Assembly: GCF_020905345.1 (NCBI RefSeq)
Contig: NZ_JAJJMO010000001.1
Span: forward strand, 4,774,001-4,838,000
Direction of reading: 5' to 3'
Source: Flavobacterium pisciphilum
GTDB lineage: Bacteria; Bacteroidota; Bacteroidia; Flavobacteriales; Flavobacteriaceae
DNA: 64,000 bases
The position numbers were made by a program, and so were the translations under genes. Below, piece after piece: positions 1,181-22,032 of this stretch. The notes below the pieces were generated by a model. That model did no database searches. It was not told where the DNA came from and saw nothing but the letters and a program-made list of their open reading frames with translations. The stretch's first letter is position 1, and every line of letters starts with the position of its first letter.

Positions 1181-1810
1181 ATGAATCAAGAAAACCAGTT
1201 GTTTAAAAGACCTACACCAATTGATAAAGAAGTTTCTTGGGATAAAACCCAAGTGATCATGAGTAAAACAAATCCGTTTGGGATTATTGAATATGCAAAT
1301 GAGACTTTTGTAGATGTTTGTGGATATGAAGACTATGAGTTAATGGGACAGCCACATAGTATAATAAGACATCCAGATATGCCACGAGTAATATTTAAAG
1401 TATTATGGGAAAATCTTAAAGAAGGAAATAATTTTCATGCTGTTGTAAAAAATCTAGCTAAATCAGGAAGATTTTACTGGGTAGTTACTGATTTTGAAAT
1501 TGCGAGGGATGCAAATGGAGCGATTGTAAATTATTTTGGAAGAAGACGCTCTGTGCCGCAAGAAGTAATTGCAATGCATATTGAACCTTTATATAAAAAA
1601 TTATTACAGATAGAATCGGCTAGCGGAATGGAGTTTAGTGAAAAATATCTGATTGGTTTTTTAGAAGAGAAAAAAAGATCCTATGTAGAGTATATTAAAG
1701 AGTTGATATATGAGCATGAAAAAGCACAATTTACACCTCACCAATCTGAAACCCCGCTTGTGGAGGAAGAAGAGGAAAGAGGGTTTTTTAGTCGTTTTTT
1801 TGGTAGATAA
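1181..1810 (+). CDS. PAS-domain protein, Aer-type, without a recognised output domain
   Basis: A 209-aa soluble protein. Residues about 25-125 form a PAS fold: NPFGIIEYANETFVDVCGY, then HSIIRHPDMPR and a YWVVTDFEIARDANG strand, close to the PAS of the FAD-binding aerotaxis receptor Aer. The rest is helical and ends in an acidic run followed by GFFSRFFGR. No kinase, GGDEF or methyl-accepting domain follows. It is a single gene with its own Fnr-type operator upstream and two terminators downstream, which suggests a redox or oxygen-linked sensor made at low oxygen. FAD binding is inferred from similarity, not seen directly. Confidence 0.8.
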   Translation: MNQENQLFKRPTPIDKEVSWDKTQVIMSKTNPFGIIEYANETFVDVCGYEDYELMGQPHSIIRHPDMPRVIFKVLWENLKEGNNFHAVVKNLAKSGRFYWVVTDFEIARDANGAIVNYFGRRRSVPQEVIAMHIEPLYKKLLQIESASGMEFSEKYLIGFLEEKKRSYVEYIKELIYEHEKAQFTPHQSETPLVEEEEERGFFSRFFGR

Positions 1811-3861: not shown

Positions 3862-4120
3862 TTGGAGTTTAGTAATTTTTAGGTATTTGCTTTTGCTTTA
3901 AGTTTATAGTAAAGAATGAAATTTTGGACAAAAGAACTATTTTTTTTTAAATTATAATTACTTATTCATCTAATTTTGTAAGAACAGGATTTGGTTTTTT
4001 ATGTTGTAAAACAATATTTTAGATGTAATCTATTTGTTATTAAATAGTTATGTTTTTATTTTTTTAAATTAACATGTTTAGAATATTTATTTAAAACAAG
4101 TTAATTCTTTCTTTTGTTCG

Positions 4121-4164
4121 ATGATAATTATCATGAATTAAGAAGGTAATGAAGAGTACTTTTG
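4121..4164 (+). promoter_or_regulatory. Fnr-type operator plus -7 box with no gene directly behind it
   Basis: ATGATAATTATCAT (4121-4134) is a perfect 14-bp palindrome, identical to the site upstream of hemN. Its centre, 4127.5, is 36.5 bases before the last G of TACTTTTG (4157-4164), a perfect TANNTTTG box. No such box sits at the mirrored minus-strand position, so the site points rightward, away from the sulfatase gene. The predicted transcription start is near 4169. Confidence 0.7.
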
Positions 4165-4168
4165 AAGT

Positions 4169-4347
4169 GAAATTATATATAAGAATTTTTAAGAGCAGTA
4201 TTCCATTTAAGATTGTTTAAATCTATGAATTAGTATAAATAGAGATGATCAGTAAGCTCCCAGTATAAATTTTTAAATATTGTTTTAATTTTTTTTGGAG
4301 AAAAAATTTAATTAATCCGTTTTAAATTCTAGAACGGATTTTTTTTT
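4169..4347 (+). ncRNA. Candidate Fnr-activated small RNA
   Basis: The predicted transcript runs about 179 nt from the Fnr-type promoter to a strong intrinsic terminator. The only ATG-initiated frames inside it are 2 and 7 codons long, so it is unlikely to be an mRNA. The neighbouring gene on the left is on the other strand, so the terminator has no protein gene to serve. ruvX, to the right, has its own -7 box beyond the terminator. It could instead be a terminated leader or attenuator for ruvX. Both ends are predicted, not observed. Confidence 0.5.
4314..4347 (+). terminator. Intrinsic terminator of the candidate small RNA
   Basis: AATCCGTT (4314-4321) pairs with AACGGATT (4333-4340); two further pairs, one of them G-U, extend the stem. 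It leaves a 7-base loop and is followed by a T-run to 4347. Confidence 0.85.
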
Positions 4348-4371
4348 ACGGCAGGAGGTTTTTACTTTATG

Positions 4372-4379
4372 TATCTTTG
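4372..4379 (+). promoter_or_regulatory. -7 promoter box of ruvX
   Basis: TATCTTTG matches TANNTTTG and lies about 18 bases before the ruvX start, beyond the small-RNA terminator. No clear TTG element is seen at the usual distance. Confidence 0.45.
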
Positions 4380-4397
4380 TCATATAATTTTAATAAG

Positions 4398-4814
4398 ATG
4401 CCAAGAATTCTCGCTATAGATTACGGACAAAAAAGAACAGGGATAGCTGTTACTGATGAATTACAAATTATTGCTTCAGGGTTAATAACAATTCCATCAC
4501 ATACAACAATTGATTTTTTGAAGGATTATTTTGCTAAAGAGAAGGTGGAAGCGGTTTTAATAGGGGAGCCAAAACAGATGAATGGAGAACCATCTGAAAG
4601 TGCTTCCATTATAAAAGGTTTTGTAACTCATTTTTCTAATATTTTTCCAGATATGAAAGTGGTTCGCGTAGATGAAAGATTTACTTCTAAAATGGCATTT
4701 CAAACAATGATTGATAGTGGTCTAAGTAAAAAACAACGTCAGAATAAGGGTTTGATTGATGAAATCTCAGCAACAATAATGCTTCAGGACTATTTGTCTC
4801 GAAAAATGTTTTAA
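4398..4814 (+). CDS. ruvX: RuvX/YqgF Holliday-junction resolvase-like nuclease
   Basis: A 138-aa RNase H-fold protein of the YqgF family, linked to Holliday junction resolution and 16S rRNA maturation. Visible motifs are the N-terminal LAIDYGQKRTGIAVTDE with the catalytic Asp, VLIGEPKQMNG in the middle, and VRVDERFTSKMA. A start 7 codons further upstream is possible, but the family begins close to RILAIDYG and the upstream ATG overlaps the -7 box. It lies before mqo, separated from it by a terminator. Confidence 0.92.
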   Translation: MPRILAIDYGQKRTGIAVTDELQIIASGLITIPSHTTIDFLKDYFAKEKVEAVLIGEPKQMNGEPSESASIIKGFVTHFSNIFPDMKVVRVDERFTSKMAFQTMIDSGLSKKQRQNKGLIDEISATIMLQDYLSRKMF

Positions 4815-10900: not shown

Positions 10901-11581
10901 TTATTCAGCCATTTTCTTTAAGGCATTAAAATTTTTCAAAACAATTTTTTTACCAATTAAGTCAATTACATCTAGTTTTTTAAAATCAGATAATAATCGG
11001 ATGCAACTTTCAGTAGCAGTACCAATCATACTTGCTAATTCATCTCTAGAAAGTTGTATTTGAAGTGTTTTGTCATTGTTTTCACCAAAAGTATCATGTA
11101 AATATAATAAGGTTTCAGCCAAACGTGATTTAACCGTTTTTTGAGCTAAGGAAACAGTATGATTATCAGATTCTTTTAAATCATCACAAATTGTTTTCAT
11201 GACATTCATAGAAAACTGATTGTTTTGATTAAAGAAATTAATAATCTCGGTTTTAGGAATAAAACATACCTCCATATCATCTAAAGCTTTTGCGCTTAAA
11301 TTGGCAGGTTCATTGCTAATCATAGATCGCTGACCTAGAAGCTCTCCAGATTTTACAAGTTTTACAATTTGATCTTTACCGTTGGCGCTTAGTTTAGAAA
11401 GTTTACCAACACCATCTTTTACACAGAAAACACCATTAGTAATTTCGCCTTCTTCAAAGATAGGATCCCCTTTTTTAATAGTATAAGTAGTTTTACTATT
11501 TGCTAGTTTAATAACTTCATCTTTGTTTAAAGCTTTTAACGAGGTAAGTTGTCTTACGATACATTGGTCACATTTATTCAT
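10901..11581 (-). CDS. Crp/Fnr-family regulator, probable oxygen/redox sensor
   Basis: A 226-aa protein with an N-terminal cyclic-nucleotide-binding-like fold (about 20-120), a dimer helix and a winged helix (about 150-222). Compared from memory with E. coli FNR, cluster ligands C20, C23 and C122 correspond to C4, C7 (CDQC) and C106 (EVCFIP). The position of C29 is Thr12, so a fourth ligand would have to come from elsewhere. In the recognition helix GTATESCIRLL, the FNR residues E209 and R213 are kept (E191, R195), but S212 is Ile194. That predicts a TGA-core palindrome, which is what the five operators here show. It lies next to the cco cluster, transcribed away from it. Confidence 0.85.
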   Translation of the reverse strand: MNKCDQCIVRQLTSLKALNKDEVIKLANSKTTYTIKKGDPIFEEGEITNGVFCVKDGVGKLSKLSANGKDQIVKLVKSGELLGQRSMISNEPANLSAKALDDMEVCFIPKTEIINFFNQNNQFSMNVMKTICDDLKESDNHTVSLAQKTVKSRLAETLLYLHDTFGENNDKTLQIQLSRDELASMIGTATESCIRLLSDFKKLDVIDLIGKKIVLKNFNALKKMAE

Positions 11582-11718: not shown

Positions 11719-11762
11719 ATGATAAATGTCATGTTTTTTGATTATACCGTTCGTGACCTTTG
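11719..11762 (+). promoter_or_regulatory. Fnr-type operator and promoter of ccoI/fixI
   Basis: ATGATAAATGTCAT (11719-11732), centred at 11725.5, is 36.5 bases before the end of GACCTTTG (11755-11762). That box has one mismatch to TANNTTTG, as expected for an activator-dependent promoter. The predicted start of transcription is near 11767. No matching box lies at the mirrored position toward the regulator gene. Confidence 0.7.
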
Positions 11763-11785
11763 TAAAAGCTTAAAAATGGTAAATT

Positions 11786-14167
11786 ATGAGTGTCCAAAAT
11801 TGTTTTCATTGTGGTTTAATTATACCAAAAAATGAAGTAATTGTTTTTGATGAAAAAGAATTTTGTTGCAGTGGATGTAAAACAGTTTATGAGATTTTTA
11901 GTCTAAATGACCTAACTTGTTATTATGATTTTGAGAATTCTCCCGGGGCAACACCACAAGATATTCAAGGTAAATATGATTTCTTAGATAATGAAAGTAT
12001 TCAGCTTAAATTATTAGAATTTCAAGAAGATACTACAGCAATAGTTTCGTTAAATATCCCACATATTCATTGCAGTTCTTGTATTTGGATTTTAGAAAAC
12101 TTAAATCGTCTTAAACCTGGAATTAGTTCTTCTCAGGTTAATTTTCCAGAAAAGAAAGTTAGAATTAACTACAATTCCGAAGAGATTACGCTTAAAGAAA
12201 TTGCTTATACATTAAGCTCAATAGGGTATGAGCCTTATATCAGCTTAGAGAATTATGAGGCTGGGAAAAATAACGTCGACAGAAGTCTAACGTATAAATT
12301 AGGAGTCGCTTTCTTTTGTTTCGGAAACATTATGTTGCTTTCTTTTCCCGAATATTTTGAAGTAAAAGAATTTTGGTTAGATAATTATAAGCCCTTTTTT
12401 CGTTGGCTGATATTAATTCTGGCCATGCCAAGTTTTTTATACTCAGCAAGTGGTTACTATGTTTCGGCTTATAAAAGTATAAAAAGCAAAATGCTAAATA
12501 TTGATATTCCCATTGCTTTAGGGATTGTTGTAATGTTTATACGAAGCACTTTTGATATTGTCATGGATTACGGTCCTGGTTTTTTTGACAGTTTGACAGG
12601 GTTGATTTTCTTTATGCTGTTAGGGAAAATGTTTCAAATCAAAACGTATAGTTTTTTAAGTTTCGAAAGAGACTTTAAATCTTATTTTCCAATTGCGGTA
12701 ACTCGAATAAACCCAAATACACCCGAAGAAAGTATTCCTATTTATGATATAGATAAAGGAGATCGACTATTGATTAGAAATCAGGAGTTGATACCTGTTG
12801 ATGGAATTTTGATAAGTGACCAAGCCGAAATTGATTATAGTTTTGTAACAGGAGAGGCTGTTCCTATCACAAAAAAATCGGGAGATAAAGTTTTTGCAGG
12901 AGGGAAGCAAATTGGTAAAGTGATAGAAATGGAGGTGCTTCATAGTGTTTCTAATAGTTACTTAACGCAGTTGTGGGGGAATGATATTTTCCAGAAAGAC
13001 GTTCAGCAAAAACATAAAACTATAACTGATGCAATTAGTCGTTATTTTACACCAATTCTATTATTAATTGCCTTTGCAGGCTTTGGTTATTGGATATTTA
13101 TAGATGCTAATACAGCGTTTAATGTCTTTACTGCTGTGCTTATTGTAGCTTGTCCGTGTGCTTTAGCATTGACCGCACCGTTTACATTTGGTAATATTTT
13201 AAGAATTTTAGGTAAGCAGAAATTCTATTTAAAAAACGCTTTGGTTATTGAGCAGCTTGCTAAAGTTGATACTTTGGTTTTTGATAAAACAGGGACGATT
13301 ACGACTAATAAAAAATCGAATATTGCATACGAAGGAAAATCACTTTCTGAAGCAAACCTTGTTATGTTAAAAAATGTACTTCGAGCATCAAATCACCCTT
13401 TAAGCCGCATGTTATATGATTCTTTACCAGAATCTAACCGAATAAAATTAGATGATTTTAAAGAAATAACTGGAAAAGGAATTTTGGCAGTAATCGAAGA
13501 TCATCAATTTCAGATAGGGTCATTTTCATTTGTTGCTGATAAAGAAGAGAATTCAATTCAACAAACGTCACTTCATATTAAAATAGATGGGGTTTATTAT
13601 GGTAAATATATATTTAATAATCAGTATAGAGAAGGCTTAGCGGCTTTGTTTAAAGAGTTGAGCTTGAATTATAAAATCAAAGTTCTTTCAGGTGATAATG
13701 ATGGAGAACGTGAAACTTTAGAAAAACTTTTGCCAGAAGGAACAGAACTTGTTTTTAATCAAAAACCAGAGCAAAAGCTTGCATTCATAAAAGAGTTACA
13801 AGATCATGGACATAATGTAATGATGGTAGGTGATGGGCTAAATGATGCAGGAGCACTGGCACAAAGTAATGTCGGGGTCTCTATTTCTGAGAATGTCAAT
13901 GTCTTTTCGCCTGCTTGTGATGCTATTTTGGATGCAACAGAATTTAAGCACCTGAGCTATTTCTTAAAATTGTCTAAAAATTCTATTAAGATTATTAAAA
14001 TGAGTTTTGTTTTATCATTGCTTTATAATGTTGTAGGATTGTCTTTTGCTATTACTGGAAATCTACTTCCTCTGGTTGCAGCTATCATAATGCCTCTGAG
14101 TACTATTACGATAGTAAGTTTTGTAACATTAGCCTCTAACTATTTCAGCAGAAGCAGTTTAAAATGA
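11786..14167 (+). CDS. ccoI: Copper-transporting P-type ATPase for cbb3 oxidase assembly
   Basis: A FixI/CcoI-type P1B ATPase that pumps copper across the inner membrane for the CuB centre of cbb3 oxidase. The 793-aa product carries an N-terminal Cys-rich zinc-ribbon-like segment (CFHCG, CCSGC), a heavy-metal-associated domain with HCSSC (about 93-98), the membrane CPCALAL motif (about 456), the phosphorylation motif DKTGT (about 499) and GDGLNDAGAL (about 683). An Fnr-type operator precedes it, and ccoS follows after a second operator. It differs from general CopA pumps by the FixI-like N-terminus and its place in the cco cluster. Confidence 0.93.
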   Translation: MSVQNCFHCGLIIPKNEVIVFDEKEFCCSGCKTVYEIFSLNDLTCYYDFENSPGATPQDIQGKYDFLDNESIQLKLLEFQEDTTAIVSLNIPHIHCSSCIWILENLNRLKPGISSSQVNFPEKKVRINYNSEEITLKEIAYTLSSIGYEPYISLENYEAGKNNVDRSLTYKLGVAFFCFGNIMLLSFPEYFEVKEFWLDNYKPFFRWLILILAMPSFLYSASGYYVSAYKSIKSKMLNIDIPIALGIVVMFIRSTFDIVMDYGPGFFDSLTGLIFFMLLGKMFQIKTYSFLSFERDFKSYFPIAVTRINPNTPEESIPIYDIDKGDRLLIRNQELIPVDGILISDQAEIDYSFVTGEAVPITKKSGDKVFAGGKQIGKVIEMEVLHSVSNSYLTQLWGNDIFQKDVQQKHKTITDAISRYFTPILLLIAFAGFGYWIFIDANTAFNVFTAVLIVACPCALALTAPFTFGNILRILGKQKFYLKNALVIEQLAKVDTLVFDKTGTITTNKKSNIAYEGKSLSEANLVMLKNVLRASNHPLSRMLYDSLPESNRIKLDDFKEITGKGILAVIEDHQFQIGSFSFVADKEENSIQQTSLHIKIDGVYYGKYIFNNQYREGLAALFKELSLNYKIKVLSGDNDGERETLEKLLPEGTELVFNQKPEQKLAFIKELQDHGHNVMMVGDGLNDAGALAQSNVGVSISENVNVFSPACDAILDATEFKHLSYFLKLSKNSIKIIKMSFVLSLLYNVVGLSFAITGNLLPLVAAIIMPLSTITIVSFVTLASNYFSRSSLK

Positions 14168-14221
14168 TTATAAATAATTCAAATGTTATTTTTTCATAAA
14201 TTTAACATATACCGCAGGAGC

Positions 14222-14265
14222 ATGATAAATGTCATATTTTAAAAGGATGCTTAAAAGTAATTTTG
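14222..14265 (+). promoter_or_regulatory. Fnr-type operator and promoter of the ccoS-ccoNOQPGH operon
   Basis: ATGATAAATGTCAT (14222-14235) has the same 14 bases as the ccoI site. Its centre, 14228.5, is 36.5 bases before the last G of a perfect TAATTTTG box (14258-14265). No TTG -33 element is visible, consistent with activator dependence. The predicted start of transcription is near 14270. Confidence 0.75.
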
Positions 14266-14287: not shown

Positions 14288-14500
14288 ATGAGTGTAATTT
14301 ACTTATTAATCTCTGTTAGTATTATTATTGCGATTGGGTTTTTTATAGCCTTTGTAGTTGCAGTAAAAACAGGTCAATACGACGATGATTATACCCCTTC
14401 AGTTAGAATGCTTTTTGATGACGAAATCAAAAAAACTCCCAACGAAAAAATAAAAACTCCCAACAATAAAATAAAAATAACCAAAGAAAAACAAATCTAG
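14288..14500 (+). CDS. ccoS: cbb3 oxidase maturation protein CcoS
   Basis: A 70-aa protein with one N-terminal membrane segment (about 4-26), then the CcoS signature FVVAVKTGQYDDDYTPSVRM. CcoS is needed for insertion of cofactors into CcoN. The C-terminus is a lysine-rich, near-repetitive tail (KTPNEKIKTPNNKIKI) beyond the usual family length. It is the first gene after the Fnr-type promoter and lies 3 bases before ccoNO. Confidence 0.9.
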   Translation: MSVIYLLISVSIIIAIGFFIAFVVAVKTGQYDDDYTPSVRMLFDDEIKKTPNEKIKTPNNKIKITKEKQI

Positions 14501-14503
14501 ATT

Positions 14504-16690
14504 ATGGAAATGCAACAATTTTATTATGACAACAAAATTGTAAAGAAATTCATCTATGCTACCATTCTTTTTGGTGTAGTAGGAATGCTGGTCGGCCTTA
14601 CATTGGCTTTTATGTACCTCTTTCCTAATATTACTGACGGGATCTCATGGTTGAGCTACGGGCGACTAAGACCTTTACACACCAACGCAGTTATTTTTGC
14701 CTTTGTAGGGAATGCATTCTTTGCAGGAATGTATTATTCTTTACAGCGACTTTTAAAAGCAAGAATGTTCAGTGATTTTTTAAGTAATGTACATTTCTGG
14801 GGATGGCAATTAATAATTGCTGCAGCAGCTATCACATTACCTTTAGGGTATACTTCGTCTAAAGAATATGCCGAATTAGAATGGCCAATTGATATCGCTA
14901 TCGCATTAATTTGGGTAGTAATGGGTATTAACATGATTGGTACAATTTTACGCCGTAGAGAACGTCATTTGTATGTTGCTATTTGGTTTTATTTGGCCAC
15001 ATTTGTTACTGTTGCGGTACTGCATATTTTTAATAATATAGAAATACCAGTTTCAGCAATGAAAAGTTATTCTGTTTACGCAGGAGTTCAGGATGCTTTA
15101 GTACAATGGTGGTATGGTCATAATGCAGTTGCTTTCTTCTTAACAACTCCATTTTTAGGAATGATGTACTATTTTGTACCTAAAGTTGCTAATCGTCCAG
15201 TATATTCTTATCGTCTATCGATTATACATTTCTGGTCATTAATATTTATATACATCTGGGCTGGGCCTCACCATTTATTGTATTCAGCATTGCCTAACTG
15301 GGCACAGAATTTAGGAGTAGCTTTTTCAGTTATGTTACTTGCTCCATCTTGGGGAGGTATGATTAACGGGCTTTTAACACTAAGAGGTGCATGGGATAAA
15401 GTTCGTGAAGAGCCAGTTTTAAAATTCTTCGTTGTAGCTATTACTGGTTACGGTATGGCAACTTTTGAAGGGCCAATGCTTTCTTTTAAAAATGTAAACG
15501 CTATTGCGCATTATACAGACTGGATTATTGCTCACGTACACGTAGGTGCATTAGCATGGAATGGTTTTATGACTTTTGGTATGATTTATTGGTTGATACC
15601 AAGAATGACAAAAAGTACTTTATTCTCTAAAAAATTAGCAAACTTCCATTTCTGGATTGGTACTTTAGGGATTCTATTATATACATTACCAATGTACGTT
15701 GCTGGTTTTCAACAAGCTTCGATGTGGAAACAATTTAACCCAGATGGTACTTTAACTTACGGAAACTTCCTAGAAACAGTAACAGCGATTATGCCATTGT
15801 ATTGGATGAGAGCTATTGGAGGTACTTTCTACCTTGTTGGAATGTTTGTATTAGTTTATAATATAATTCAAACTATACGTGTTGGTAGCCCAATTGAAGA
15901 TGAATTGGCAGAAGCACCAGCATTAGAGAAAATTAGCAGTAGTAGAGTTCGTGGAGAAAAATTCCATTCATGGTTAGAAAGAAAACCTATCCAGTTAACT
16001 ATTTTGGCTACAATTGCTATTTTAATTGGTGGAATCATTCAAATTGTTCCAACGATTATGGTAAAATCAAATATACCTACAATAACAAGTGTAAAACCAT
16101 ATTCACCATTGGAACTTGAAGGTCGTGACTTATATATTCGTGAAGGTTGTGTTGGATGTCACTCACAATCAGTACGACCATTTAGAAGTGAGGTTGAACG
16201 TTATGGACCACAATCAAAAGCAGGAGAGTTTGTGTATGACCATCCATTCTTATGGGGATCTAAACGTACAGGGCCAGACTTGTTAAGAGTAGGTGGTAAG
16301 TACAATGATAACTGGCATTTTAATCATTTCTGGAATCCACAAAGTATATCTGCAGGTTCAATCATGCCAGGGTACAAATGGTTATTTGATAATAAGCCGA
16401 TGGATATTTCATTAACACAAAAGAAAATGGAAGTAATGGTTCAGTTAGGAGTTCCGTATTCTCCTGATGAAATTGCCAATGCACAAAAATTATTGAGAGC
16501 TCAAGCCCTTAAGATCGAAAAGAATTTAGAAAACGATCCTGATTATGTTGCGAGTTATGCTGATAGCAAGAAAAAGGCAGAAGCAAAAGGAGAGAAATTC
16601 ATTCCTATGAATGAAAGAGAAATTGTAGCGCTTATTGCTTATATGCAACGATTAGGAACAGATATCAAAGTAAAAGAGACTTCAAAATAG
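14504..16690 (+). CDS. ccoNO: Fused cbb3 cytochrome oxidase subunits I/II (CcoN-CcoO)
   Basis: Catalytic core of the high-affinity cbb3-type terminal oxidase. Residues 1 to about 470 are CcoN, with about 12 membrane helices and the heme/CuB histidines in RPLHTNAVIF, WWYGHNAVAFF, GPHHLLYSALP and IAHVHVGALAWNG. From about 500 to the end is CcoO: one anchor (ILATIAILIGGIIQIVPTI) and a mono-heme c domain with CVGCH (about 549). In most Proteobacteria these are two genes; the fusion is usual in Bacteroidota. It follows ccoS by 3 bases and precedes the short ccoQ gene. Confidence 0.96.
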   Translation: MEMQQFYYDNKIVKKFIYATILFGVVGMLVGLTLAFMYLFPNITDGISWLSYGRLRPLHTNAVIFAFVGNAFFAGMYYSLQRLLKARMFSDFLSNVHFWGWQLIIAAAAITLPLGYTSSKEYAELEWPIDIAIALIWVVMGINMIGTILRRRERHLYVAIWFYLATFVTVAVLHIFNNIEIPVSAMKSYSVYAGVQDALVQWWYGHNAVAFFLTTPFLGMMYYFVPKVANRPVYSYRLSIIHFWSLIFIYIWAGPHHLLYSALPNWAQNLGVAFSVMLLAPSWGGMINGLLTLRGAWDKVREEPVLKFFVVAITGYGMATFEGPMLSFKNVNAIAHYTDWIIAHVHVGALAWNGFMTFGMIYWLIPRMTKSTLFSKKLANFHFWIGTLGILLYTLPMYVAGFQQASMWKQFNPDGTLTYGNFLETVTAIMPLYWMRAIGGTFYLVGMFVLVYNIIQTIRVGSPIEDELAEAPALEKISSSRVRGEKFHSWLERKPIQLTILATIAILIGGIIQIVPTIMVKSNIPTITSVKPYSPLELEGRDLYIREGCVGCHSQSVRPFRSEVERYGPQSKAGEFVYDHPFLWGSKRTGPDLLRVGGKYNDNWHFNHFWNPQSISAGSIMPGYKWLFDNKPMDISLTQKKMEVMVQLGVPYSPDEIANAQKLLRAQALKIEKNLENDPDYVASYADSKKKAEAKGEKFIPMNEREIVALIAYMQRLGTDIKVKETSK

Positions 16691-16697
16691 AGAAATT

Positions 16698-16868
16698 ATG
16701 TTCGAACAAGTAAAACACAACTTAGAGACTATCGCAGGAGTAGAGGTATTTCCAATACTTTCTTTGCTAATATTTTTCATCTTTTTTGTTTGCCTAGGGA
16801 TCTGGGTATTTTCATACGGGAAAGATAAAATTGAAGAAATGAGCCAAATTCCATTGGACGAAAATTAA
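16698..16868 (+). CDS. ccoQ: cbb3 oxidase subunit CcoQ
   Basis: A 56-aa frame between ccoNO and ccoP, starting 7 bases after the ccoNO stop (MFEQVKHNLETIAGVEVFPI). It has one membrane segment (about 18-39, LSLLIFFIFFVCLGIWVFSY), followed by a short charged tail. Size, topology and position are those of CcoQ, a small subunit that stabilises the oxidase. Confidence 0.85.
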   Translation: MFEQVKHNLETIAGVEVFPILSLLIFFIFFVCLGIWVFSYGKDKIEEMSQIPLDEN

Positions 16869-16895
16869 ATTGTAGAATTAAAAATAATATATAAA

Positions 16896-17837
16896 ATGAA
16901 AAAATTAATTCCAGTATATATACGATTACCACTAATTTTCTTCATCGTTTTTGGTGCAATGGAATATTTTATAGACTCAGGAGATAAACCGGCATTTATA
17001 AAATACCCAATGGTTTCTGTCTTTTTATTCGTATTTCTTTTTCTTTTAATAGCAATTGAGATTACAGTAAGTGCAATCGATCGTATTACATATAATCTGT
17101 TGACAGAAGAGCAGAAAGCTAAACTAGAGCTTGATAGTAATTTAAGTCTGAAAGAAAGAGCTTGGTATAAAAATTTAATGCAAAAACTAACAAAATCGGA
17201 GCCAATAGAAATGGAGGCGAGTTTGTTATTAGATCATGATTATGATGGTATTAAAGAGTTAGATAATAACTTACCACCATGGTGGATTTACTTATTCTAC
17301 ATTACAATTGCCTTTGCTGTATTTTATGTAGCACATTATGATGTGTTTGGCGGAGATGATCAGGAGATGGAGTTAAAAAAGGAGATGGCGCAAGCTAAGA
17401 TAGATGTTGAAGAATATCTTAAAACAGCTCCAGATTTAATGGATGAGAAAACGGTTACTATATCAACAGATCCTGCTGATATTGCAGCTGGTAAGGAGAT
17501 CTTTACAACCAATTGTGCAGCTTGTCACCGAGTTGATGGAGGAGGGCAAATTGGACCAAACTTAACAGATGATCACTGGATTTTAGGAGGAGGAATAAAA
17601 GAAATATTCCATACGATTAGTAATGGAGGACGAGATGGAAAAGGGATGATAGCATGGAAAGGAACATTAAAGCCAAAGGAGATACAAAAAGTAGCTAGTT
17701 ATATTTTGACTTTAAAAGGAAGTAATCCAAAAGATCCGAAAGAACCAGAAGGAGAAGTATGGATAGATAAAGATGCATCAAAAGCTGATGCGGGAGCAGT
17801 TGCAACACAAACAGATTCTACACAAGTTAAAAAATAA
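16896..17837 (+). CDS. ccoP: cbb3 oxidase subunit CcoP with a single heme c
   Basis: A 313-aa membrane-anchored cytochrome c that delivers electrons to CcoNO. It has two N-terminal membrane segments (about 8-58), a cytoplasmic linker, the CcoP signature HDYDGIKELDNNLPPWW with a third membrane segment (about 129-148), and one heme-binding motif C207-A-A-C210-H211 with a later Met in GKGMIAWKG. Proteobacterial CcoP normally has two CXXCH motifs; only one is present here. The C-terminus is a low-complexity, Lys/Ala-rich tail. Confidence 0.93.
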   Translation: MKKLIPVYIRLPLIFFIVFGAMEYFIDSGDKPAFIKYPMVSVFLFVFLFLLIAIEITVSAIDRITYNLLTEEQKAKLELDSNLSLKERAWYKNLMQKLTKSEPIEMEASLLLDHDYDGIKELDNNLPPWWIYLFYITIAFAVFYVAHYDVFGGDDQEMELKKEMAQAKIDVEEYLKTAPDLMDEKTVTISTDPADIAAGKEIFTTNCAACHRVDGGGQIGPNLTDDHWILGGGIKEIFHTISNGGRDGKGMIAWKGTLKPKEIQKVASYILTLKGSNPKDPKEPEGEVWIDKDASKADAGAVATQTDSTQVKK

Positions 17838-17841
17838 TACC

Positions 17842-19260
17842 ATGTCAAATTTACCAGACGAAGCTTTTAGAGATACCATCGGAACGATTGATGAAGGGGG
17901 TAATAGAAAATTTATTTTCCCTAAGAAACCGTCTGGTAAATTATATGAATACAGAAAATGGGTTAGTTATGTTTTATTAACCATTTTAGTTGTAAATCCA
18001 TTTATAAAAGTAAATGGGAATCAATTTATGATGTTCAATATATTAGAACGTCGTTTTAATATTTTCGGATTTCCTTTTTGGCCTCAAGATTTTTATCTTT
18101 TTGTAATTTCAATGCTTGTAGGTATTGTATTTATAATCTTGTTTACAGTTGTATATGGTCGTATTTTTTGTGGATGGATTTGTCCACAAACTATATTTTT
18201 AGAACTTGTTTTTCGTCGAATAGAATATTGGATTGATGGAGACAGAGGAGCGCAATCACGACTTGCTAGGCAAGAGTGGAATGGAGAAAAAATTAGAAAA
18301 CGATTGATAAAATGGTTTATCTTTTTTGTGATCTCTTTTTTAATAGCCAATGTGTTCTTGGCTTATTTGGTAGGAAGTGATCAATTGTTTTTAATGATTG
18401 AAGAAGGACCAATTAAGCAAGCAAGTAACTTCATAGCGCTATTATTATTTACAGGAGTTTTCTACTTTATATTTGTTTGGTTTCGTGAGCAGGTGTGTAT
18501 TATAGCTTGTCCATATGGAAGGTTACAAGGAGTGCTTTTGGATAATAAATCCATTAATGTAGCTTATGATTTTGTTCGTGGTGAAAAAGAACTAGGTAGA
18601 GCCAAATACAATAAGCAAGAAGATAGAGCAGCCTCTGGAAAAGGAGATTGTATTGATTGTAAACAATGTGTTCATGTTTGTCCAATGGGAATTGATATAA
18701 GAAACGGAACTCAATTAGAATGTACCAATTGCACGGCTTGTATTGATGAATGCGATACCATCATGGAAAATGTTGGTTTGCCAAAAGGACTTATCCGATA
18801 TGCCTCAGAAGATGAAATAGAGAAAAAAGAGCCTTTCAGATTTACAGCAAGAATGAAAGGATATACAGCAGTATTGGTTGTCTTGCTAGGAATTTTTGTT
18901 GGAATGTTGTTTTTAAGAAATGATGTTCAAGCTACAATTTTGCGTTTACCAGGACAGCTTTTTCAACACAAAGGGGATAAAATAAGTAACATCTATACGT
19001 ATAAGATTGTCAATAAAACAATGAATGATTTTACTGATATCCATTTTGAGTTAATTAATCAAAAAGGAACTATAAAAAATGTTGGAACTCAAAAATTTAA
19101 AGTTCCAAAACAAGGAATTTCACAAGGTACTTTGTTTATAGAAATAGATCAAGTACTTTTAGATAGTGATAAAACCAAGGTAGAAATAGGTGTTTTTAGT
19201 GGTGAAAAGCTAATAGAAAAAACATCAACAAACTTTTTAGGACCGAGAAGTTTTAATTAA
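17842..19260 (+). CDS. ccoG: Cytochrome oxidase accessory protein CcoG (FixG), 4Fe-4S
   Basis: A membrane iron-sulfur protein of the cbb3 maturation set, reported to act in copper reduction for CuB. The 472-aa product has about five membrane segments, cytoplasmic ferredoxin motifs CIDCKQCVHVCPMG and CTNCTACIDEC, and a C-terminal immunoglobulin-like domain (about 350-470). An ATG 23 codons upstream lies inside ccoP in another frame; the start at 17842, four bases after the ccoP stop, fits the family. Confidence 0.94.
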   Translation: MSNLPDEAFRDTIGTIDEGGNRKFIFPKKPSGKLYEYRKWVSYVLLTILVVNPFIKVNGNQFMMFNILERRFNIFGFPFWPQDFYLFVISMLVGIVFIILFTVVYGRIFCGWICPQTIFLELVFRRIEYWIDGDRGAQSRLARQEWNGEKIRKRLIKWFIFFVISFLIANVFLAYLVGSDQLFLMIEEGPIKQASNFIALLLFTGVFYFIFVWFREQVCIIACPYGRLQGVLLDNKSINVAYDFVRGEKELGRAKYNKQEDRAASGKGDCIDCKQCVHVCPMGIDIRNGTQLECTNCTACIDECDTIMENVGLPKGLIRYASEDEIEKKEPFRFTARMKGYTAVLVVLLGIFVGMLFLRNDVQATILRLPGQLFQHKGDKISNIYTYKIVNKTMNDFTDIHFELINQKGTIKNVGTQKFKVPKQGISQGTLFIEIDQVLLDSDKTKVEIGVFSGEKLIEKTSTNFLGPRSFN

Positions 19261-19270
19261 AAAAGAAATT

Positions 19271-19720
19271 ATGAAAATTAACTGGGGAACTGCAATTGTA
19301 ATTGCATTTGGATTGTTTATGACATTCATTTTATACTTTGTTTTTAAAGTACAATCCGATAGTAAGTATAGTAATGATTTGGTTGTTGAAGAGTATTATA
19401 AACACGATTCTCATTTTGGAGATGAAATGACGCGTGTTCAAAATGCTCATGATTTAAAATTAAAGCCAACGATTATTGCTATGAAAGAAGGGGTTAAAAT
19501 TGTTTTCCCTAATACTTTTGAAAGCAAAAATATAAAAGGAGAGGTATTAATGTACCGTCCATCAAATAAAAAACTAGATTTTAATACAGCAATTAGCTTA
19601 ACAAATTCTGAATTATTGATTCCTCAAAAGAAATTAATAAAAGGACGTTGGGATGTAAATATGGAGTGGCAATATAATGGCCAACAGTATTTAACTAAAG
19701 AAGTTGTTTATGTTAACTAA
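19271..19720 (+). CDS. ccoH: FixH/CcoH family protein
   Basis: A 149-aa protein with one N-terminal membrane segment (about 6-26), KINWGTAIVIAFGLFMTFILYFV, then a periplasmic domain with the FixH pattern VVEEYYKHDSHFGDEM and a C-terminal RGRWDVNMEWQYNGQQY. CcoH assists cbb3 oxidase assembly. It starts 10 bases after ccoG and is the last gene of the tight run; a 164-base gap follows. Confidence 0.9.
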   Translation: MKINWGTAIVIAFGLFMTFILYFVFKVQSDSKYSNDLVVEEYYKHDSHFGDEMTRVQNAHDLKLKPTIIAMKEGVKIVFPNTFESKNIKGEVLMYRPSNKKLDFNTAISLTNSELLIPQKKLIKGRWDVNMEWQYNGQQYLTKEVVYVN

Positions 19721-20602: not shown

Positions 20603-21967
20603 TTAAATAGTCATTGAAAATAAACTTGTTTCAGGGGCTTTTCTTTTTAGATGTAAATCAAAAGCCATACAAATGTTGCGTACAAAAGGTTTTCCTGCTT
20701 CAGTAACATTTATTTTTTGGTTCTCGATAGTAAGTAACCCGTCATTCTCCATTTCTTTTAATTGAAGTAGAATTTCAGGAATCTCTTTAAAATAGGTGCT
20801 TTCTTCGCTCCATGTCGTTTCAAAATTGCACATTAAGTTTAGTATGTGCTTTCTAATAATAAGGTCCTCTTCAGTCAATATATGTCCTTTTACAACAGGA
20901 AGTTTATCCCATTCTAGTAATTGATAGTAATCTTCTATGGTTTTTACATTTTGAGCAAAACTATACCAGCTATCACTAATTGAAGAAACACCCAGTCCAA
21001 TCATTAATTGAGTTTTGGAAGCACTATATCCCATGAAATTACGATGTAATTTGCCTTCTTTAAAAGCAGTATATAAATGGTCAGATTTTAGAGCAAAATG
21101 ATCCATACCAATTTCATGAAATTCATTTTTATACAATAATTGTTTTCCAATTTCGTATAATTTTCGTTTTTCGGCATCTTTAGGGACGTTTTCATCGCTA
21201 AAACCTCTTTGTCCATTCCCTTTAATCCAAGGCACATGTGCGTAGCTGTAAAAAGCCAAACGATCAGGTTGTAGTGAATTTGTTTTCTCTATCGTGTCGA
21301 TGATATCTTCGACTTCTTGGAAAGGCAAGCCAAAAATTAAATCATGACTTATAGATGTATAGCCAATTTCTTTAGCCCAAAATGTTACTTTGGCTACATT
21401 GTGAAAAGATTGCTCACGATGAATTGCTTTTTGTACTTTTTTAGAATAATCCTGAACACCATAACTGACTCTTCTGAAGCCTAAGTTATAAAGTTTTTGT
21501 AAGTGTTCGTAGGTTGTATTATTAGGATGGCCTTCAAAGCTAAACTCGTGCTCTTTGGCTATATCCGCATAAGAAAAGATACCATTAATTAAATCTTCGA
21601 GATTTTTAGGGGAGAAGAAAGTAGGTGTTCCGCCCCCCAAGTGAATCTCTTTAATTATGGGCTTTTCGTTAAGTAATTTACAGTATAGGCTCCATTCTTT
21701 AATTACTGCTTCTATGTATGGATTTTCTACATCATGGTTTTTTGTAATTCGCTTGTTACAACCACAAAAAGTACACATACTTTCGCAAAAAGGCAAATGG
21801 ATATATAAACTAATCCCATCTTTCTGATTACTTTCAGCAAATGATTTTTGTAAAGAATCAATCCAAAGTTGATAAGTAAAATCATTTTCATTCCAGTAAG
21901 GAACAGTAGGATAGCTTGTGTATCTTGGCCCTGGAACATTATATTTTTGTATCAACAAATTTTTCAT
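20603..21967 (-). CDS. hemN: Oxygen-independent coproporphyrinogen III oxidase
   Basis: A radical-SAM enzyme of heme synthesis that works without oxygen. The 454-aa product has PRYTSYPTVPYW near the N-terminus, the radical-SAM cluster motif CESMCTFCGCNK, and GGGTPTFFSP. An upstream ATG would add 8 residues and lies within the promoter region, so MKNLLIQKYNVPGPRYTSYP was taken as the start. It has its own Fnr-type operator with an ideal -7 box. This joins heme supply to the heme-rich cbb3 oxidase at low oxygen. Confidence 0.95.
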   Translation of the reverse strand: MKNLLIQKYNVPGPRYTSYPTVPYWNENDFTYQLWIDSLQKSFAESNQKDGISLYIHLPFCESMCTFCGCNKRITKNHDVENPYIEAVIKEWSLYCKLLNEKPIIKEIHLGGGTPTFFSPKNLEDLINGIFSYADIAKEHEFSFEGHPNNTTYEHLQKLYNLGFRRVSYGVQDYSKKVQKAIHREQSFHNVAKVTFWAKEIGYTSISHDLIFGLPFQEVEDIIDTIEKTNSLQPDRLAFYSYAHVPWIKGNGQRGFSDENVPKDAEKRKLYEIGKQLLYKNEFHEIGMDHFALKSDHLYTAFKEGKLHRNFMGYSASKTQLMIGLGVSSISDSWYSFAQNVKTIEDYYQLLEWDKLPVVKGHILTEEDLIIRKHILNLMCNFETTWSEESTYFKEIPEILLQLKEMENDGLLTIENQKINVTEAGKPFVRNICMAFDLHLKRKAPETSLFSMTI

Positions 21968-21988: not shown

Positions 21989-22032
21989 CAAAATTAATTA
22001 GAAACCAAAGAGATTAAAATGATAATTATCAT
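21989..22032 (-). promoter_or_regulatory. Fnr-type operator and promoter of hemN
   Basis: The palindrome ATGATAATTATCAT (22019-22032) is centred at 22025.5. On the minus strand a perfect TAATTTTG box ends at 21989, again 36.5 bases away. Transcription would start near 21984, 17 bases before the chosen ATG. Confidence 0.75.

Follow-up and report, generated by a model that had tools for sequence, protein, structure and literature searches.

A fixed operator-promoter unit points to a probable FNR-like oxygen regulon in Flavobacterium that may include a clade-specific small RNA

In proteobacteria, the cbb3 oxidase and hemN are among the targets of FNR regulons, the FNR box of Escherichia coli carries an outer T and an outer A, and FnrS of E. 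coli is a small RNA under FNR control. In the Bacteroidota, a report on Bacteroides thetaiotaomicron describes SnoA, an RNA antisense in the hcp promoter whose level is independent of HcpR and whose signal is nitrosative stress (PMC13370916). For the Flavobacteriales, a CRP/FNR meta-regulon of an anammox microbiome includes a homologue predicted to be MalR-like and carbon-sensing (PMC8510549); that work resembles ours in treating CRP/FNR homologues of this order. The main text of a transcriptome study of F. psychrophilum, supplements aside, does not mention Fnr or Crp (PMC9723704), and we found no description of an Fnr-type oxygen regulon in flavobacteria in the open-licence literature searched. 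Here we analyse a 64,000-nucleotide stretch (hereafter the window, 32% G+C) of the 5.46-Mb genome of Flavobacterium pisciphilum, in which a Crp/Fnr-type regulator gene lies among five operator-promoter units of constant geometry. We estimate at roughly 0.7 the probability that these units belong to an FNR-like oxygen regulon of Flavobacterium that includes a clade-specific small RNA, a model in which the binding, the cluster and the oxygen signal are predictions.

The motif TGATANNTRTCA is present in exact form at the five places for which it had been claimed in a preliminary description of the window, namely 1068, 4122, 11720, 14223 and 22020. These correspond to eight strand-matches, compared to a mean of 0.56 in shuffled sequence, and none of 100 shuffles reached eight. 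Read base by base, all five palindromes proved to be centred at a distance of 36.5 bases from the final G of a -7 box, the box being a perfect TANNTTTG in four units and GACCTTTG, with one mismatch, in the fifth, exactly as that description had it. On the forward strand, the unit at 1068-1110 (operator TGATAAATATCA, box TAGTTTTG at 1103-1110) lies 5' of a PAS-domain gene, that at 4122-4164 (operator TGATAATTATCA, box TACTTTTG at 4157-4164) would be the promoter of a candidate small RNA, that at 11720-11762 (operator TGATAAATGTCA, weakened box GACCTTTG at 11755-11762) occupies the intergenic region shared by the regulator gene, here called fnr, and a copper-pump gene, and that at 14223-14265 (operator TGATAAATGTCA, box TAATTTTG at 14258-14265) is the putative promoter of a cco cluster. 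The fifth, at 21989-22031 on the reverse strand (operator TGATAATTATCA, box TAATTTTG at 21996-21989), is the putative promoter of hemN. The spacer between operator and box is 23 bases in every unit (gap 23). Because the sigma-A box spans -12 to -5 in the start-site map given in the main text for F. psychrophilum (PMC9723704), a gap-23 site would be centred at -41.5, which agrees with the earlier suggestion that the G is at -5. With the start transferred in this way from the map of a related species, the operator position is that of a class II Crp/Fnr-activated promoter.

The motif by itself carries no such signal, as the whole genome holds 37 strand-matches (22 places) compared to 40 for a reversed control pattern, and it was dropped as evidence. 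Combined with the box, it behaves differently. The exact motif-plus-box unit occurs five times in the genome and the reversed control not once; of the 17 motif places outside the window, a single one is accompanied by an exact box at that distance, and it precedes a universal stress protein (usp) gene. We also scanned 37 Flavobacterium genomes, F. pisciphilum included, with the spacing between motif and box left free from 8 to 38. Gap 23 accounted for 74 of the 143 pairs found, followed by gap 22 with 18, while gap 24 had 4 and the remainder were scattered, apart from minor groups at gaps 9-10 and 14; at least seven further pairs came from genomes outside the genus. The binomial value for gap 23 is nominally 3e-70, a figure that ignores the relatedness of the genomes. 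Across the genus, 254 of 299 genomes contain the exact gap-23 unit and the reversed pattern is absent from every one, and in a sample of the order the unit was found in 70 of 296 genomes and 35 of 90 genera. The refutation that the preliminary description had set out was thus put to the test and the units withstood it, and the signal is the combination of motif and spacing.

To define the promoter more closely, base frequencies were counted in 75 gap-23 promoters, comprising 69 from other genomes, that of the F. pisciphilum usp gene and the five of the window. At positions left free in the search, -48 is A in 77% and C in 21%, -42 and -41 are A or T only, and -35 is T in 80% and G in 14%. Because of this bias, the operator is given as (A/C)TGATAwwTRTCA(T/G), the core TGAT-N4-RTCA being present in all units by construction of the search. 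The flanks are thus A/C and T/G rather than the T and A of the E. coli operator TTGAT-N4-ATCAA, whose outer T occurs in 1% and outer A in 2% of the 75 promoters. A further difference from proteobacterial FNR systems is that the promoter is of the Bacteroidota sigma-A type without a TTG at -33 to -31, a G at -31 being found in 10%.

The genes at four of the window sites fit the oxygen theme proposed for them in the preliminary description, as Pfam and NCBIfam assignments identified a PAS-domain protein, a heavy-metal P-type ATPase, a cbb3 cluster and hemN. The PAS-domain protein (1181-1810, forward strand, 209 amino acids, Pfam) is a probable target, and its unit is also found in genome G004 and at matching places in G299 and G475. 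The P-type ATPase (11786-14167, forward strand) scores below the cut-off of the copper-specific model and is a putative copper pump for cbb3 assembly, CcoI by position. It is followed on the same strand by ccoS (14288-14500, 70 amino acids, TIGR00847 above cut-off), the first gene of the cbb3 cluster, and by a ccoNO fusion, ccoP, ccoG and a 149-amino-acid gene that would be ccoH by position (together 14504-19720). PRK14485 and TIGR02745 are above cut-off for ccoNO and ccoG, TIGR00782 is below it for ccoP, and the 149-amino-acid gene has no NCBIfam match. On the reverse strand, hemN (20603-21967, 454 amino acids, TIGR00538 above cut-off) encodes the oxygen-independent coproporphyrinogen III oxidase. 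According to the main text of the F. psychrophilum study, the cbb3 oxidase and haem enzymes are raised under oxygen limitation in that species (PMC9723704), as expected from the proposed regulon.

Respiratory genes are also the commonest genes downstream of gap-23 units elsewhere, in line with the enrichment that the preliminary description had suggested testing for. Among 69 units from 27 other genomes, with gene classes told apart by short sequence signatures, hemN follows in 18, ccoS in 15, usp in 6 and a small membrane-protein open reading frame (ORF) also in 6. A lactamase-fold/rhodanese protein is found behind 3 units, a nitrite reductase-cytochrome fusion and a monooxygenase (the latter by eye) behind 2 each, and a NarK-like transporter, the PAS gene and the small RNA behind one each; the remaining 14 units precede single genes that were left unclassed, and several of these look like genes for c-type cytochromes. 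Library checks covered the window genes and, among survey genes, the F. pisciphilum usp, NarK-like, nirK, YceI and outer-membrane protein genes and the protein at locus L275, with a single representative each for the nadA, feoB, cytochrome c assembly and rhodanese/lactamase classes. The one-mismatch units of F. pisciphilum itself include one 5' of nirK, whose TIGR02376 score is above cut-off, one 5' of a NarK-type transporter gene, which scores below cut-off, and one 5' of a YceI gene; no ORF was found downstream of a one-mismatch site at genome position 683519.

The promoter of the copper pump was compared with the operator pattern relaxed to TGAYANNTRTCA. Within the genus, 18 of 19 loci have the operator 5' of the pump gene, and in 17 of these 18 the box at gap 23 carries exactly one mismatch, which always replaces the first T, by G in 12 loci, by C in 3 and by A in 2. 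None of nine loci with a pump gene outside the genus has a unit at gap 23. The natural reading of so conserved a departure from the consensus is a weak, presumably activator-dependent promoter.

The regulator gene (10901-11581, reverse strand) is divergent from the copper-pump gene and encodes a 226-amino-acid protein with the Pfam domains cNMP_binding and HTH_Crp_2. Besides these domains, a Crp fold is indicated by an AlphaFold2 model (mean pLDDT 88.7) and by Foldseek matches to Crp/Fnr structures, the best being a Crp/Fnr protein of Porphyromonas gingivalis (2GAU). It shares 94-96% identity with the corresponding proteins of F. hydatis, F. branchiarum and strain LS1R49. Its cysteines comprise a CxxC at residues 4 and 7 and further residues at 53, 106 and 132, with C53 and C106 placed by the model in strands 50-56 and 103-109. 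C4, C7 and C106 align with three of the four cluster ligands of FNR. In 57 of 57 aligned sequences C4, C7, C53 and C106 are invariant, and C132 is kept in at least 90%; the orthologues at loci L211 and L214 retain C53 and have lost C132. In the recognition helix, GTATESCIRLL, the E and R known from FNR are present and its Ser is not. In the Crp fold, the TGAT-N4-ATCA core, these two residues, the class II position, the predicted targets cbb3 oxidase and hemN and the three aligned cysteines, the system resembles proteobacterial FNR as represented by the E. coli protein and by A. fischeri FNR (5CVR/5E44).

Several observations tie the units to this regulator. In the genus, the exact unit is present in 244 of 269 genomes with an orthologue compared to 10 of 30 without (Fisher 5.5e-12), and restricting the comparison to high-quality genomes gives 214 of 234 compared to 5 of 19 (3.1e-10). 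Furthermore, fnr and the copper-pump gene are arranged divergently in 28 of the 30 loci that were compared, at identities reaching as low as about 37%. Of the 18 short-gap matches in the genus (gaps 8-11), 17 stand immediately 5' of fnr, which would centre the site between -26.5 and -29.5 in the promoter of fnr, where binding should repress fnr in many relatives; the window differs in that its operator lies at a greater distance from fnr. The link proposed earlier between the sites and the neighbouring Crp/Fnr gene therefore gains support from co-occurrence and from the shared operator, although binding and oxygen sensing by the protein are predicted from these patterns.

Orthologues in genomes G040 and G053 (L215, L216) have lost C4, C7, C53 and C132 but are still encoded divergently from the copper pump, with a TGAYAnnTRTCA motif in the locus, and represent a possible cluster-free descendant.

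The site at 4122, which the preliminary description had left unexplained, differs from the others in that no gene starts within more than 200 bases of it, and a terminator scan detected a terminator-like hairpin with a T-run at 4314-4347. The next gene, which we take to be ruvX, starts with an ATG at 4398 and has its own TATCTTTG box at 4372-4379 (forward strand). Because the hairpin with its T-run and this separate box intervene, the 4122 site does not appear to serve ruvX directly. With the start placed relative to the box, the predicted transcript is about 179 nucleotides long (4169-4347, forward strand, terminator stem 4314-4340 followed by the T-run), comparable to the many independent small RNAs of median 176 bp reported in the main text for F. 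psychrophilum (PMC9723704). The locus was found in seven genomes, namely F. pisciphilum, G004, G198 (F. shii), G299, G307, G475 and F. hydatis, and the operator-box unit is conserved upstream of the RNA in all seven. Mean pairwise identity is 0.95 for the operator, 0.96 for the box, 0.82 for the RNA body and 0.85 for the terminator, compared to 0.64 for the promoter spacer, 0.63 upstream, 0.73 for the ruvX leader and 0.61 for ruvX four-fold sites. In G198 the upstream flank is a PAS gene (by eye) and not the sulfatase gene, and operator, box, RNA body and terminator are all kept. A coding reading was rejected, as the longest ORF has 21 codons and is present in one of the seven sequences only. 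All seven loci therefore show, by sequence, a promoter and a terminator of their own and a conserved non-coding body, the general features of a small RNA.

A covariance-model search over the 299 genus genomes (E up to 0.1) gave matches in 30, with E below 1e-25 in only five (G000, G004, G198, G299 and G307). The weaker matches were treated as noise, since none of the 15 loci examined (L230-L244) of 30 weaker matches has an upstream operator-box unit. A scan of genome contigs with a 23-base core of the RNA recovered F. sp. KMS, F. hydatis DSM 2063 and F. shii LS1R49, and the G475 locus came from an order-level scan. Rfam gave no match at the gathering score over the window, nor at E up to 1 over 4100-4400. 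The 4122 unit is thus most likely the promoter of a small regulatory RNA produced when oxygen is low, a candidate Fnr-activated RNA of no Rfam family whose transcription and action are predicted. It is like FnrS in having a promoter with an Fnr-type operator, a short non-coding transcript and its own terminator, features known here from sequence, and unlike FnrS in lacking an Rfam match and being confined to a few Flavobacterium species. SnoA and HcpR likewise bring a Crp/Fnr-family regulator and a regulatory RNA into one response in the Bacteroidota, but the antisense position of SnoA in the hcp promoter, its HcpR-independent level and its nitrosative-stress signal set it apart from the candidate (PMC13370916).

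A number of points weigh against this interpretation and bear on how it should be framed. The NCBIfam Fnr model, which is proteobacterial by name, scores the regulator at 81.5 bits against a cut-off of 228, and the fourth cluster-cysteine position of FNR is a Thr, so that an equivalent of Cys29 is lacking while Cys53 is invariant and Cys132 nearly so. Because this cut-off is not reached and the classical outer operator bases are not found, we describe the protein as FNR-like and do not file it as a member of Fnr; with three FNR ligands matched by aligned cysteines and a Thr in place of the fourth, C53 or C132 is a candidate fourth ligand. Among units with up to two mismatches, the genome holds 37 compared to 16 for the reversed control, and weak sites in F. 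pisciphilum may therefore be due to chance. The exact unit is missing from 25 of the 269 genomes with an orthologue and present in 10 of the 30 without a detected one. For the RNA, the single-sequence fold has a z of -1.54, with 17 of 200 shuffles as stable, and compensatory pairs number 2 of 38 (six sequences) or 1 of 50 (seven sequences); because fold and covariation are this weak, the case for a small RNA is made from conservation, promoter and terminator and not from structure. The RNA is also restricted to a few close Flavobacterium species, and binding, cluster and expression in this strain are predicted.

These points leave room for other explanations to different degrees. That motif and spacing arose by chance in an AT-rich genome would accord with the motif alone being as frequent as its reversed control, but it is refuted by the genus-wide count of 254 of 299 compared to zero, by the concentration of pairs at a single gap, by the recurrence of the same downstream genes and by the bias at positions free in the search, and we give it practically no weight. 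It is improbable, though far less so, that another Crp/Fnr paralogue is the main binder, or that several paralogues overlapping in specificity and signals (for instance NO) share the sites. A search of the genome with the Crp helix-turn-helix family gave eight matches, four of them Crp/Fnr-like by inspection, so at least three more such proteins exist, and two (L300, L302) have an E..xxR recognition helix; the orthologue-less genomes that keep the unit, and the gap-22 sites associated with feoB in one such genome, point the same way. Set against this are the strong co-occurrence of orthologue and unit, the operator shared by fnr itself, the low-oxygen character of the targets, and the N-terminal CxxC, which among the four is found in the window's protein only. 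Slightly more plausible, but still unlikely, is that the 4122 site drives a long ruvX 5' leader whose conserved hairpin acts as an attenuator in cis, with no separate small RNA. The unit does adjoin ruvX in all seven genomes; however, the T-run terminator closes it, a conserved TATCTTTG box stands directly before ruvX, and G475 has an additional hairpin in between.

In the FNR-like regulon that we favour, the Crp/Fnr protein would carry an iron-sulfur cluster labile to oxygen, and under oxygen shortage its dimer would bind (A/C)TGATAwwTRTCA(T/G) centred at -41.5, taking the place of the missing -33 element and activating sigma-A RNA polymerase as a class II activator at promoters with a TAnnTTTG -7 box. 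This would switch on the copper pump and the cbb3 oxidase cluster, hemN for oxygen-independent haem synthesis, the PAS protein and the universal stress protein, probably also nirK and the NarK-like transporter, and, in the clade of F. pisciphilum, the small RNA of about 179 nucleotides ending at its own terminator. The RNA would presumably serve as a post-transcriptional repressing arm, as FnrS does in E. coli, and in many relatives fnr itself would be repressed through the operator that it shares with the copper-pump gene, an operator that lies there at about -27 in the fnr promoter. The start sites in this genome are likewise predicted. A more detailed version, in which the ligands are C4, C7, C106 and either C53 or C132, operator specificity has shifted, and the clade-specific RNA acts in trans to repress aerobic functions, is offered tentatively, at somewhat less than even odds.

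At low oxygen, such a regulon would raise a high-affinity oxidase together with its loading with copper, haem synthesis by the anaerobic route and nitrite-related functions. The genus-wide fixed unit supplies a sequence-based rule for predicting the members of the regulon and a natural test of a class II activator on the unusual sigma-A promoter of the Bacteroidota, and the cysteine pattern asks for a new cluster ligand. The RNA adds a concrete candidate for a small RNA under oxygen control, one that, if the more detailed version above is true, would be a Bacteroidota counterpart of FnrS.

Some further observations concern individual loci. At the second spacing, gap 22, six of eight loci (L140-L143, L145, L147) have a FeoB-like ORF about 265 bases downstream (Pfam for L140 only), and since feoB-associated gap-22 sites also occur in G026, which has no fnr orthologue, another regulator may be involved. 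In G475, the extra hairpin between the small RNA terminator and the ruvX promoter is GC-rich (L296, 4240-4280). A conserved large protein (601 amino acids in L120) is encoded behind an exact unit in G025 and behind a unit with one mismatch in F. pisciphilum (genome position 3471318), and showed no Pfam or NCBIfam match (L275). Within the nirK promoter spacer of F. pisciphilum (L033, genome positions 4644819-4644861), an inverted repeat AAAGAC...GTCTTT lies between operator and box, and comparable repeats 5' of nirK-type genes in G020 and G002 suggest that it is perhaps the site of a second regulator. Other sites without a long ORF were rejected as further small RNAs, because at six of them (L081, L082, L090, L097, L122 and L134) a conserved ORF of about 42-53 codons encodes a membrane protein. 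A family of single-span proteins of about 42 amino acids (MKDTTLF.WDNGTFIM...MMNSDKK; L188-L200, e.g., L081 1201-1370) was not found in F. pisciphilum; it has 95 database relatives, those named being hypothetical proteins from Flavobacterium, and no Pfam domain. Thirteen of its 14 loci have a gap-23 operator and box with at most one mismatch in each, and the protein is a possible small subunit of a low-oxygen oxidase.

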